Under the pieces are notes generated by a model. That model was not told the DNA's origin and ran no database searches. It was given only the letters and a program-made list of their open reading frames with translations. A stretch of DNA of 7,670 bases from Candidatus Rokuibacteriota bacterium (GTDB taxonomy: Bacteria > Methylomirabilota > Methylomirabilia > Rokubacteriales > JACPHL01), in the NCBI GenBank assembly GCA_016188625.1, contig JACPHL010000015.1, forward strand, positions 1 to 7,670. Direction: 5' to 3'. The stretch's first letter is position 1. The number at the start of each line of letters is the position of its first letter. Made by a program: the position numbers and the translations under genes. Positions 617 to 6,075 of the stretch are shown one piece after another.

Positions 617-1303
617 ATGGGCGCGCCCGCCGACCACCTGGCCGAGGCATTCCACGGCTTGGCCGACCACTTGAGGTTCCTCCAGGCCCTCGGCGTCAAG
701 GAGCTCCCCCTGTCGCGCGAGTACCTCGCCGGCCCGGGCGGCGGGCTGCGCCGCCTCGAGCAGGCCATCGAGGGGTGCACGCGCTGTAAGCTCTGCCGCG
801 GCCGCCGGACCATCGTCTTCGGGAGCGGCCCCGCCGAGGCCGGGCTGATGCTCATCGGCGAGGGCCCCGGGGAGGAGGAGGACCGGCAGGGGAAGCCCTT
901 CGTCGGGCGGGCCGGGCAGCTCCTCACCCGGATGCTCGAGTCGGTGGGGATCTCCCGGGACGAGGTCTACATCACCAACATCGTGAAGTGCCGGCCTCCC
1001 GGGAACCGGAACCCCGAGCCCGACGAGATCGCCGCCTGCGCCCCCTTCCTGGACGGCCAGCTCGCCGCCATCCGGCCCCGGATCGTCTGCGCGCTGGGGA
1101 CCTTCGCGGCCCAGACCCTCCTCCGGACCCGCGAGCCCATCGGGAAGCTCCGCGGGCGGGTCCACGCCTTCGGCGCCATCCCCCTCATCCCGACCTTCCA
1201 CCCCGCCTTCCTCCTCCGGAACCCCGGGCCGCAGTACCGGCGCCTGGCGTGGGAGGACATGAAGCTTCTCAGGCGAGAGTACGACCGGGCGAGGGGGGGA
1301 TGA
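617..1303 (+). CDS. udg: Type-4 uracil-DNA glycosylase (iron-sulfur UDG)
   Basis: This enzyme cuts uracil from DNA, starting base-excision repair of deaminated cytosine. The 228-residue protein carries the family-4 signature GEGPGEEEDRQGKPFVG at 81-97, followed by RAG, and the C-terminal HPAFLLR motif at 195-201. Four cysteines, C54 and C57 (in CTRCKLC) with C125 (NIVKCRPPGN) and C141, are placed as the [4Fe-4S] ligands typical of this family. The GEGPG motif separates it from type-5 UDGs. The first ~45 residues are an extension seen in many bacterial members. The ATG at 617 is preceded by CTAGGCC and no clear Shine-Dalgarno; no better in-frame ATG precedes the core, although TTG codons at 662 and 671 are possible starts. 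The stop overlaps the next start as ATGA, so priA is probably translationally coupled. Function is confident; the exact start is less so. Confidence 0.92.
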   Translation: MGAPADHLAEAFHGLADHLRFLQALGVKELPLSREYLAGPGGGLRRLEQAIEGCTRCKLCRGRRTIVFGSGPAEAGLMLIGEGPGEEEDRQGKPFVGRAGQLLTRMLESVGISRDEVYITNIVKCRPPGNRNPEPDEIAACAPFLDGQLAAIRPRIVCALGTFAAQTLLRTREPIGKLRGRVHAFGAIPLIPTFHPAFLLRNPGPQYRRLAWEDMKLLRREYDRARGG

Positions 1304-3132
1304 TCGCCCGGGTCGTCTTCGACCTGCCGGTGGAGCGCGCCTTCTCCTACCGGGTCCCGACCGCCCTCGCCGGGAGGATCGGCCCGGGTCAGCGGGTCCT
1401 GGCCCCCTTCCGGGGGCGGCCGCGCCTCGGCGTCGTCGTGGGGATGGAGCCCGCGGATGACCCGGCCCTGGCCTCCCTCGACCGGGCGCGGGACCCGATC
1501 GCGGCCCTCTCCCCGGTCCTCCTCGAGGTGGCCCAGGCCGTCGCCCGCGAGGCGTGCGCGGCGTGGGGCCAGGTCGTCCTCCGGAGCCTCCCGCCCGAGG
1601 CCCGGGGCGGTGCGCCCGACGGTCTCCCGGAGGCCTCCCGGGTCTCGAGCGGCATCGCCCGGGCCCGGCTCGTCGTCGGGCGGGAGAGGGAGCGGCTGAT
1701 CGAGGAGGGCGCGGCCGAAGCGCTCGGGGCCGGTCGGGGGGTCCTCGTCCTGGCGCCGGAGATCGAGCTGGCCAAGGCGTGGGTCCGCCGGCTCCGGGTC
1801 CGGTGCGGGGTCGAGCCGGTCCTCCTCCACGGCGCGGTCCCGCCGGCCAGGCGCTGGGAGGGGTGGTGGGCGCTCCGGCAGGGGCGCGCGCGGCTCGCGG
1901 TCGGGACCCGGTCGGCGTGCCTCGCCCCGATCCCCGCGCCGGGGCTGACGGTGGTTGTGGACGAGCACGATCCGGCCCACAAGGCCCCGGCGGCCCCGCG
2001 GGTCCACGCCCGGGAGGTCGCCCGGGCGCGGGCCGCGCGGGAGGGGGGCGATCTCCTCCTGACCAGCGCGGCGCCGAGCCTCGAGAGCTGGTATCGGGCC
2101 CGGGCCGGTGAGGCCGAGCTGGAGGAGACCAAGGGCGACGGCTGGCCGACCATCGAGCGGGTGGACCTCCGGGGCGCGCCGCGGGATCGCTGTCTCGCGC
2201 CGCCGCTCCGGGCCGCGATCGCCCGGACCCTGGGCGAGGGGCGTCAGGTCCTGCTGCTCCTCAACCGCCTCGGCTTCGGCGCCGCCCTGCGCTGCCGGGA
2301 GTGCGGCGCGGTGCGCCGCTGCCCCGCCTGCCGGATCGCCCTCACCTACCACCTGGAGGGGCGGCGCCTCCACTGCCACCTCTGCGGCCTCTCCACGCCG
2401 GCCCGGAGCCTCTGCCCCCGCTGCCGCGGGCGACGGCTGGAGGGGTTGGGGTGGGGGACCGAGCGGGTGGAGGCCGAGGCGCGCGAGGCCTTCCCGGGCG
2501 TGGCGGTGGCGCGCCTGGACGGGGAGAGCGCCCGAGGCCGACGCGGGCCGGCGATCCGCCGCGCCTTCCAGGCGGGGGCGATCCGCCTCCTGGTCGGGAC
2601 CCAGATGGCGGCCCGCCTCCTCCCCCATCCCGAGGTCGGGCTGTGCGCGGTGGTGTCGGCCGATGCCACCCTCGACCTCCCCGACTTCCGTGCCGGGGAG
2701 CGGACCTTCCAGTTGCTCTGGGGACTGGCGGAAGCCCTCGGCCCCGACGCCTCGCTCTGGATCCAGTCCCACTACCCCGAGCACTACGCCCTGGAGGCGG
2801 TCGCCCGGCGCCATGCTGAGGCGTTCTACGAGACCGAGCTGGCCTTTCGCGAGGAGCTCGACCTCCCTCCGCGGCGCCGCCTGGCCCGGCTGCTCGTGCG
2901 CGGCCCCGACGGGGCCGGCCTCGCCGCCTCGCTGGGGGCCCGGCTGCGCACCGACGCCGGCCTGGCCGTCTACGGGCCCACCCCCCTGGGCGACCGGCGC
3001 TGGCAGCTCCTGGCGAAGGGGGGGGCGACCCTCCCCGATGCCCTCGGGGCCTGCCTGGAGCCGCTCCGCGGCCGGCACCGCCTCGTCGGCGGCCGGTGGG
3101 AGCTGGATGTGGACCCGGTCGAGTTAGGATAG
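1300..3132 (+). CDS. priA: PriA-family primosomal protein N' with degenerate helicase motifs
   Basis: PriA binds stalled or repaired replication forks and directs reloading of the replicative helicase. The start is ATG 1300, overlapping the udg stop; the frame is open further upstream only as the udg shadow. The protein has 610 residues against about 730 for typical PriA. Visible parts are a 3'-DNA-binding domain (about 1-100, beginning ARVVFDLPVERAFSYRVP), then GTRSACLAPIPAPGL (202-216), and a complete zinc region with C332, C335, C341, C344, C359, C362, C372 and C375. GWGTERVE (384-391), LPDFRAGERTFQLL (460-473) and a C-terminal domain with RWQLLAKGG (567-575) also remain. Key ATPase motifs are lost: the Walker A place reads VVGRERERL (125-133), DEEHD has become DEHD (221-224), and the QVAGRAGR segment is replaced by WGLAEALGPDAS (474-485). 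The winged-helix segment is absent. Actinobacterial PriA proteins are likewise known to lack usable helicase motifs. It is likely a DNA-binding scaffold rather than a motor. Confidence 0.9.
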   Translation: MIARVVFDLPVERAFSYRVPTALAGRIGPGQRVLAPFRGRPRLGVVVGMEPADDPALASLDRARDPIAALSPVLLEVAQAVAREACAAWGQVVLRSLPPEARGGAPDGLPEASRVSSGIARARLVVGRERERLIEEGAAEALGAGRGVLVLAPEIELAKAWVRRLRVRCGVEPVLLHGAVPPARRWEGWWALRQGRARLAVGTRSACLAPIPAPGLTVVVDEHDPAHKAPAAPRVHAREVARARAAREGGDLLLTSAAPSLESWYRARAGEAELEETKGDGWPTIERVDLRGAPRDRCLAPPLRAAIARTLGEGRQVLLLLNRLGFGAALRCRECGAVRRCPACRIALTYHLEGRRLHCHLCGLSTPARSLCPRCRGRRLEGLGWGTERVEAEAREAFPGVAVARLDGESARGRRGPAIRRAFQAGAIRLLVGTQMAARLLPHPEVGLCAVVSADATLDLPDFRAGERTFQLLWGLAEALGPDASLWIQSHYPEHYALEAVARRHAEAFYETELAFREELDLPPRRRLARLLVRGPDGAGLAASLGARLRTDAGLAVYGPTPLGDRRWQLLAKGGATLPDALGACLEPLRGRHRLVGGRWELDVDPVELG

Positions 3133-4807: not shown

Positions 4808-6075
4808 ATGCGGGCGCTCCAGGGCCTTCCGGTCTCGGCGCGGGCGGAGGCCCTCAGGATCCTCTGCCGGGTCGAGGTCGATGCCGCCTACGCCGACATC
4901 CTCCTGGACCGCGCGCTCAGCCGTCGGGGGCTGGCCGTCCGCGACCGGGCCCTCACCACGGAGCTGGTCTACGGGACGCTCTGCTGGCAGCGCCGGCTGG
5001 ACTGGCACCTGGCCCGCGTCTCGCGCCGGCCCCTCGCCGAGCTGGACCCCTGGGTCCGGAATCTCCTCCGGCTGACGGCCTACCAGCTCCTGCTCCTCGA
5101 TCGCATCCCCGCCCGGGCGGCGGTCCACGAGGCGGTCGAGCTGGCCAAGCGGCTCGGCCACCCCGGGGTGGCGGAGTTCGTCAATGCGACCCTGCGCGCG
5201 CTGGTCAGGAGTGGGCGTGAGCTGCCGGCGCCGCTCCCCGAGGATCCGGTGGCGGCCCTGGCGGTCCGGGCCTCGTTCCCCGACTGGCTCGCCGCGCGGT
5301 GGGTGGCGCGGTACGGGTTCGCCGAGGCGGAGGCCCTCCTCGCGGCCCTCAACGACCGCGCCCCGCTCACCCTCCGGGTCAACCCGCTCAAGGCCGACCC
5401 CGAGACGCTCCGCCGGACCCTGGCCGGCGAGGGGATCGAGGCGCGCCCCTGCCGCTTCGCTCCCGACGGGCTGGTCGCCGCGGGGGTGCCGGCCCTCGAT
5501 CGGCTCCCCGCCCTCCGCGCCGGCTGGTGCGTCGTCCAGGATGAGGCCTCGATCCTGGTGGGGCATCTCCTTGCCCCGGAGCCGGGCGAGGCGGTGGCGG
5601 ACGTCTGCGCGGCCCCGGGGACCAAGACGACCCACCTGGCCGGCCTCATGGCCGACCGCGGGCGCCTCCTCGCCTTCGACCCCCACCCGGGCCGGCTCGG
5701 GCGCGTCCAGGAGGCGTGCCGGCGGCTCGGGGTCAGCATCGTGGAGTGCCTGGAGGGGGAGGTCGCCCGGCTCGCCCCCGCCTACCCCGAGGCCTGCCAT
5801 CGGGTCCTGGTCGATGCCCCCTGCTCGAACCTGGGGGTCCTCCGCCGGAACCCCGAGGCGAAGTGGCGCTGCCGGGAGGCGGACCTCCCCGCCCTGAAGG
5901 CGCGGCAGCGGGCGATCCTCGAGGTCGCGGCGACGATGGCCCGGCCGTCGCCCCGGCGCCGCCCCCCCGGGGCTTCCCGGCCGCCTGCGTGGACGCCCGG
6001 GGGACGCTCCGGATGCTCCCCCATCGGCACGGCTCGGACGGGTTCACCGCCGTACGCCTCAGGAGGCGCGGATGA
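4808..6075 (+). pseudogene. rsmB: 16S rRNA (cytosine-5) methyltransferase RsmB, frameshifted with internal deletion
   Basis: RsmB uses S-adenosylmethionine to methylate a 16S rRNA cytosine (C967 in E. coli). Residues 1-376 are well preserved: a NusB-like RNA-binding domain (about 8-140), the SAM motif VADVCAAPGTKTTHLAGLM (263-281), and motif IV VDAPCSNLGVLRRNPEAKWR (335-354). After ILEVAATMARP (370-380) similarity stops. The expected next block, PGG-x-LVYSTCS-x-EPEEN with the motif VI catalytic cysteine, is absent in every frame. The true tail resumes in another frame from about 5947 (VAPAPPPRGF, then TLRMLPHRHGSDGFTAVRLRR) and ends at TGA 6073-6075. I infer a deletion near 5940-5950 of roughly 90-120 bases, length 1 mod 3. 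The unshifted frame runs through rpe to 6814. The start is ATG 4808 with GAGGTGAG before it; an in-frame GTG at 4796 overlapping the fmt stop is an alternative. A sequencing or assembly error cannot be excluded. Confidence 0.85.

Follow-up and report, generated by a model that had tools for sequence, protein, structure and literature searches.

In Escherichia coli PriA bound to a fork, the zinc region and lobe 2 pivot, and the cysteine-rich region (CRR), lobe 2 and the C-terminal domain (CTD) make up a pore around the lagging-strand ssDNA; after pore formation, the zinc region docks PriB (PMC10175261). E. coli PriA can do without its ATPase for PriA-PriB restart in vivo, and the K230A protein loads DnaB in vitro (PMC10175261). 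In cells mutated for recG and ruvAB, joint molecules are unwound by PriA acting as a helicase, and priA300 (K230R) suppresses this (PMC4752480). PriA of Deinococcus radiodurans presents no ATPase or helicase activity; it binds ssDNA and forks, and there is evidence that it binds DnaB (PMC4504706). The Deinococcus-Thermus PriAs share a Lys-to-Arg change at Walker A, and in 2015 they were described as notable exceptions to motif conservation, in a work with logos from 100 PriAs of 18 phyla (PMC4504706). The PriA of Actinobacteria has been described as highly divergent and of smaller size (PMC1193525). In addition, it has been suggested that DciA perhaps acts with PriA (PMC9825169). Three papers contain both terms, Rokubacteria and PriA; judged from titles and abstracts, none of them deals with a PriA from Rokubacteria.

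The window analysed here is a stretch of 7,670 nucleotides on contig JACPHL010000015.1 (C42 in our numbering) of a 2.6-Mb metagenome-assembled genome (MAG), which is 84% complete. The original prediction considered that the host might or might not be actinobacterial; an actinobacterial host is ruled out, as the genome belongs to the order Rokubacteriales and its named relatives are Candidatus Rokuibacteriota/Rokubacteria. The window was also predicted to encode an intact PriA-family protein, and coordinates, codon count and profile matches agree with this: the frame is single, uninterrupted, and runs for 610 codons from ATG through the stop (Table 1). The protein passes the curated PriA model TIGR00595, whose cut-off is 230 bits, matches the Pfam domains for the PriA 3'-DNA-binding domain (3'BD) and zinc ribbon, and has Klebsiella and E. 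coli PriA among its homologues of solved structure (E about 1e-66). Full-length homology above the cut-off, the 3'BD with the eight-cysteine zinc region, and the PriA fold place it in the PriA family.

Table 1. Features of the priA locus, in window positions (aa, residues of the PriA protein)
Feature	Position	Strand	Basis
priA, 610-aa PriA, predicted motor-dead (pseudohelicase)	1300..3132	+	TIGR00595, 328 bits; frame intact
3'-DNA-binding domain, aa 4-98, retained	1309..1593	+	PF17764, 52.7 bits; AlphaFold2 pLDDT 91-96
Short linker, aa 99-123, without winged helix and Q motif	1594..1668	+	Linker length; gapped columns
Walker A, degenerate (VVGRERERL, aa 125-133), with Arg130 for Lys and Glu131 for Thr	1672..1698	+	Alignment
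Degenerate DEEH box DEHD, aa 221-224	1960..1971	+	Alignment
Cysteine-rich region, eight zinc cysteines, aa 332-375, retained	2293..2424	+	8/8 invariant; PF18319, 33.6 bits
Motif V, GTQM present, KGHDFP replaced by RLLPHP	2596..2634	+	Alignment
Lobe-2 segment DFRAGERT, retained as in canonical PriAs of the class	2683..2706	+	Alignment
Place of motif VI, QVxGRxGR replaced by WGLAEALGPDAS; Trp474 and Glu478 order-wide	2719..2754	+	Alignment
C-terminal domain, retained	2857..3126	+	Aligned to E. coli and Klebsiella PriA CTD

The state of each motor motif was read by alignment to canonical PriAs from the class. An active PriA helicase, which is an SF2 ATPase, carries the Walker A motif GxTGSGKT, the DEEH box and QVxGRxGR, and none of these is present in the window protein. 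The loss of Walker A that had been predicted holds: the place of GSGKT reads GRERE (aa 127-131), with no misplaced Walker residues. Arg130 is present in 50/50 sequences of the order, and all outgroups have Lys there. The DEEH box is degenerate as predicted, but not by the absence of one Glu: in an ungapped alignment, the DEEHD of canonical PriAs corresponds to VDEHD, so that the first Asp is changed to Val and the catalytic Glu to Asp. The predicted replacement of KGHDFP and loss of motif VI were recovered in the same alignment, in which QVxGRxGRG stands against GLAEALGPD, a change common to all aligned sequences of the order. The winged helix is also missing, as predicted, and to this is added the loss of the Q motif, whose invariant columns are gaps in the window protein. 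Just 24 aa separate the 3'BD from lobe 1, compared with 193-206 aa in class sisters; some canonical PriAs have linkers of 36-65 aa. From these motifs we infer that the ATPase activity was lost; a weak ability to bind nucleotide may persist.

On the other hand, the parts that contact DNA and zinc are kept. The eight zinc cysteines and the start of the 3'BD had been predicted to remain, and all eight cysteines and the 3'BD domain match were found. The C-terminal RWQLL, the third part thought to be conserved, is present in the window protein, but most members of the order retain no more of it than the Arg. An AlphaFold2 model built from a 42-row alignment reached pLDDT 88.1 and pTM 0.88. The closest fold is that of an E. 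coli PriA with a winged-helix deletion (PDB 6dcr; Z 35.2, 3.4 A, 552 residues), which differs in being an engineered deletion within an ATPase-type PriA. PriA structures as a whole matched the model at Z 28.8-35.2, and the next family, Mfd, at Z 17.9; thus, both lobes, the zinc region and the CTD are predicted to fold together despite the loss of the motor.

Among the closest described systems is PriA of D. radiodurans, also a PriA ortholog without a functional ATPase site in which the Walker Lys is changed to Arg. DNA binding is kept and DnaB reloading has been proposed in that system; for the window protein both are predicted from sequence. The two differ in phylum, and the D. radiodurans protein was assayed biochemically, while the Rokubacteriales loss is traced to one order that has canonical sisters. 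Actinobacterial PriA (NCBIfam PRK14873), which the original prediction gave as the known parallel, does lack Walker A, DEEH and motif VI, has a short linker where the winged helix would be, and keeps the eight cysteines. The parallel needs the addition that a helicase-free scaffold was known earlier in Deinococcus-Thermus (PMC4504706). Actinobacterial PriA is, moreover, a separate sequence family, in which GTQM is lost, whereas the window protein keeps it, and in which the DEEH box reads DDGDD. The predicted fold is the same as that of E. coli PriA, whose Walker Lys K230 corresponds to Arg130. The ATPase-dead K230A and K230R (priA300) forms are a further likeness, as both PriA-PriB restart and the loading of DnaB proceed with them (PMC10175261, PMC4752480). 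Wild-type E. coli PriA differs in that it is active as a helicase, has a winged helix and has PriB, DnaT and DnaC as partners, and the details of PriB docking are not transferable to the Rokubacteriales protein.

The original prediction held that the changes were not random decay and might be shared more widely than this genome, and both statements are supported by the distribution of the motifs. The same replacements occur in 50/50 aligned sequences of Rokubacteriales, including the nearest lineage (G003) and a large family (f2), and the loss is common to all members of the order examined. A DNA pattern for the canonical PriA Walker A was found in 0/60 genomes of the order and, with the same pattern, in 29/35 genomes of the class outside the order. 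The simplest history is one loss of the motor at the base of Rokubacteriales. The lobe-2 motifs GTQM and NRxG[FY] are still present in the window protein and in G003 and are altered in the other family, which indicates that the decay was stepwise. A sequencing or assembly artefact might be suspected from a record made of MAG contigs only, but it is refuted by the recurrence of these replacements in some 50 genomes that were binned independently, and its probability is practically nil.

The search for a second, intact priA that the original prediction had called for gave none in the window's own genome with TIGR00595, at its 84% completeness. A second canonical copy was rejected: the two weaker matches (51 and 40 bits) are a Mfd-type protein and RecG, the latter with 752 bits as RecG, and the canonical Walker A is absent order-wide.

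Selection on the gene was estimated as dN/dS by Nei-Gojobori counts. The medians from 14 close pairs within the order were 0.23 (whole gene), 0.22 (lobe 1), 0.09 (lobe 2) and 0.15 (zinc region); eight pairs of ATPase-type class sisters gave 0.20, 0.13, 0.11 and 0.11, respectively. Low dN/dS in an intact frame had been named beforehand as the sign of a functional non-helicase, and the order's pairs do present purifying selection. The lobe values (0.22 vs 0.13 in lobe 1, 0.09 vs 0.11 in lobe 2) point to an approximately two-fold relaxation, mainly at the ATP-binding lobe. A decaying relic, whose restart role passed to another pathway, would be consistent with this relaxation and with the many changed catalytic residues. 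It is nevertheless very improbable: frames are intact in nearly all members of the order that have the complete gene, dN/dS is far below 1 everywhere, the constraint on lobe 2 equals that of active PriA, and gene order is conserved. In addition, new residues were fixed across the order, with Arg130, Trp161, His227, Trp282, Trp385 and Trp474 in 100% of the sequences and Glu478 in 98%. The window protein, derived from the PriA helicase, deprived of its ATPase motifs and still under selection, corresponds in these respects to a pseudohelicase in the sense used for D. radiodurans PriA; the lack of ATPase and helicase activity and the binding of forks and DnaB, which also belong to that definition, are predicted for it.

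This fixation bears on another explanation, in which the ATP site was re-used and a pocket of Arg130-Glu131, Trp282, Trp474 and Glu478 would serve as a docking site or as a sensor of a ligand that is not hydrolysed. Across more than 20 genera the replacement residues are invariant or nearly so, a pattern not expected from loss alone. The same invariance is explained equally well by packing of a collapsed pocket or by retained DNA contacts, no ligand or partner is known, and the residues of the remodelled pocket are not common to other motorless lineages. We thus regard re-use of the site as unlikely.

Phylogenetic trees were built on an alignment of 464 columns, from which Walker A, the DEEH core, the KGHDFP core and motif VI were left out. 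The PriAs of the order form a single group (support 96 in one tree and 90/87 in another). The free trees set two actinobacterial-type PriAs beside the order (support 88; 96/92), as would be expected if a motorless priA had been gained horizontally from Actinobacteria instead of arising by loss inside the class. The actinobacterial branch is very long, however, and a tree forcing the order to join its class sisters was 13 log-likelihood units better than the free tree (p-AU 0.687). The window protein scores 360 bits with PRK05580 and 170 with the best actinobacterial PRK14873 model, far from the cut-off of 812, and does not belong to that family; the two actinobacterial-type PriAs reach 1152 and 770 bits with their best PRK14873 model (cut-off 980). 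GTQM, present in the window protein, is lost in the actinobacterial type. The gene order udg-priA-def-fmt-rsmB-rpe is identical in four other genomes of the order, from two families, and udg lies within about 4 kb of priA in 3/4 class-sister contigs examined; both observations support vertical inheritance of the locus. Model scores, retained motifs and gene neighbourhood thus favour vertical descent of the order's PriA, the tree by itself being ambiguous, and we hold horizontal gain to be improbable.

In the same neighbourhood, rsmB (window 4808-6075) is broken. Its homology in frame stops at ILEVAATMARP (about position 5945). The usual C-terminal sequence, LPHRHGSDGF, follows in a different frame, and some 40 residues are absent, the YATCSLEPEEN motif among them. 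The gene is intact in four relatives (L174, L179, L180, L181), and the break is either a real deletion or an assembly error.

In a wider survey, 293 other bacterial genomes were scanned for the Walker A pattern, and 78 pattern-negative genomes with completeness of at least about 91% were then searched with TIGR00595. Motorless PriAs, with no Walker A and further motifs degenerate, were found in 23 genomes of 20 families (L079-L100, L102). Two of the 23 are of the actinobacterial type, and some others may be of the known Deinococcus-Thermus type. In the tree alignment, the eight cysteines are kept in 23/23 motorless and 83/83 canonical PriAs and in all Rokubacteriales rows. Every motorless row and nearly every canonical one also has prolines 523-524, and most rows have the Gly/Thr pair at 433-434; the catalytic columns are lost in the motorless PriAs. 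The tree needs at least four changes of motor state, a rough count, as long branches join at its base. These sequence comparisons are an indication that motorless PriA arose repeatedly in bacteria. By alignment, about 13 of the 23 other motorless PriAs have Arg at the position of the Walker Lys; at exact spacing, in an alignment-free count, 6/23 do, with about 1.6 expected. This is only a hint of convergence on Arg.

Some proteins of the survey deserve separate mention. The motorless PriAs L080 and L082 are nested among canonical ones (96 with the GKS-type L111) and apparently represent a further, separate loss of the motor. L101 (genome G277) keeps the P-loop GPPRSGKT with motifs II and VI degenerate; it stands outside both the motorless and the canonical classes, and is possibly an intermediate state of motor loss. 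Three genomes (G207, G368 and G110, 93-96% complete) gave TIGR00595 matches at the level of RecG/Mfd only, and their PriA may be absent, missed, or past recognition.

As for the partner genes, DnaB, the loader DciA and RecG were detected in 12/12 genomes of the order and 6/6 class sisters checked. No homologues of PriC or of the DnaD family were found in these 18 genomes, in which controls were detected. DciA is present in 19/23 motorless and 47/57 canonical genomes, so that a link between motor loss and this loader was rejected. DnaB matches were spread over frames of 1229 aa (G001:C4:30953-34573) and 826 aa (G011:C135:2816-5173), suggesting that dnaB of genus g2 carries inteins.

Then, we propose, as a highly probable reading, that this Rokubacteriales bacterium has no other PriA, that the common ancestor of the order lost the ATPase/helicase site, and that the protein is maintained as a motorless initiator of replication restart. 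Restart in this organism probably runs on a motorless PriA scaffold. As the domains for fork binding and pore formation are kept and the motor is lost, the protein would be a non-hydrolysing clamp or scaffold that hands forks to DnaB with DciA; absence of ATP hydrolysis, fork binding and DnaB loading are predicted for it. At an abandoned fork or D-loop, the 3'BD would recognise the 3' end of the leading strand. Lobe 1, lobe 2, the CRR and the CTD, folded together, would clamp the lagging-strand ssDNA in a pore of the E. coli type, and the zinc domain with its neighbouring surface would recruit the machinery for DnaB loading, here DciA plus DnaB. If lagging-strand duplex must be unwound, RecG or another enzyme may do this; alternatively, forks of this kind may not be used.

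Motorless PriA in Deinococcus-Thermus and the divergent PriA of Actinobacteria were already known. What is new is the order-wide case of Rokubacteriales with its canonical sisters, together with the parallel loss of the winged helix and the Q motif and the signs from the survey that the motor was lost repeatedly. A broader reading, that motor loss is recurrent (the order and the 20 families) with the zinc domain always spared, and that the Rokubacteriales pocket was rebuilt as a contact or sensing site, is put forward only tentatively, and we would not expect it to hold; if true, Rokubacteriales PriA would be a clamp with an added function, and not a helicase minus its motor. In either case, an order with motorless PriA beside families of the same class with active-type PriA constitutes a natural experiment. 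The parts that selection keeps without ATP hydrolysis, namely the zinc cysteines, lobe 2 and the 3'BD, are those expected to recognise the fork and reload the replisome. The survey indicates that motorless PriA is commoner than the original prediction or the 2015 work (PMC4504706) assumed. It suggests that "conserved except Deinococcus-Thermus" understates how frequently bacteria lack the PriA motor, and that many proteins annotated by pipelines as 'replication restart helicase PriA' may be non-helicases.
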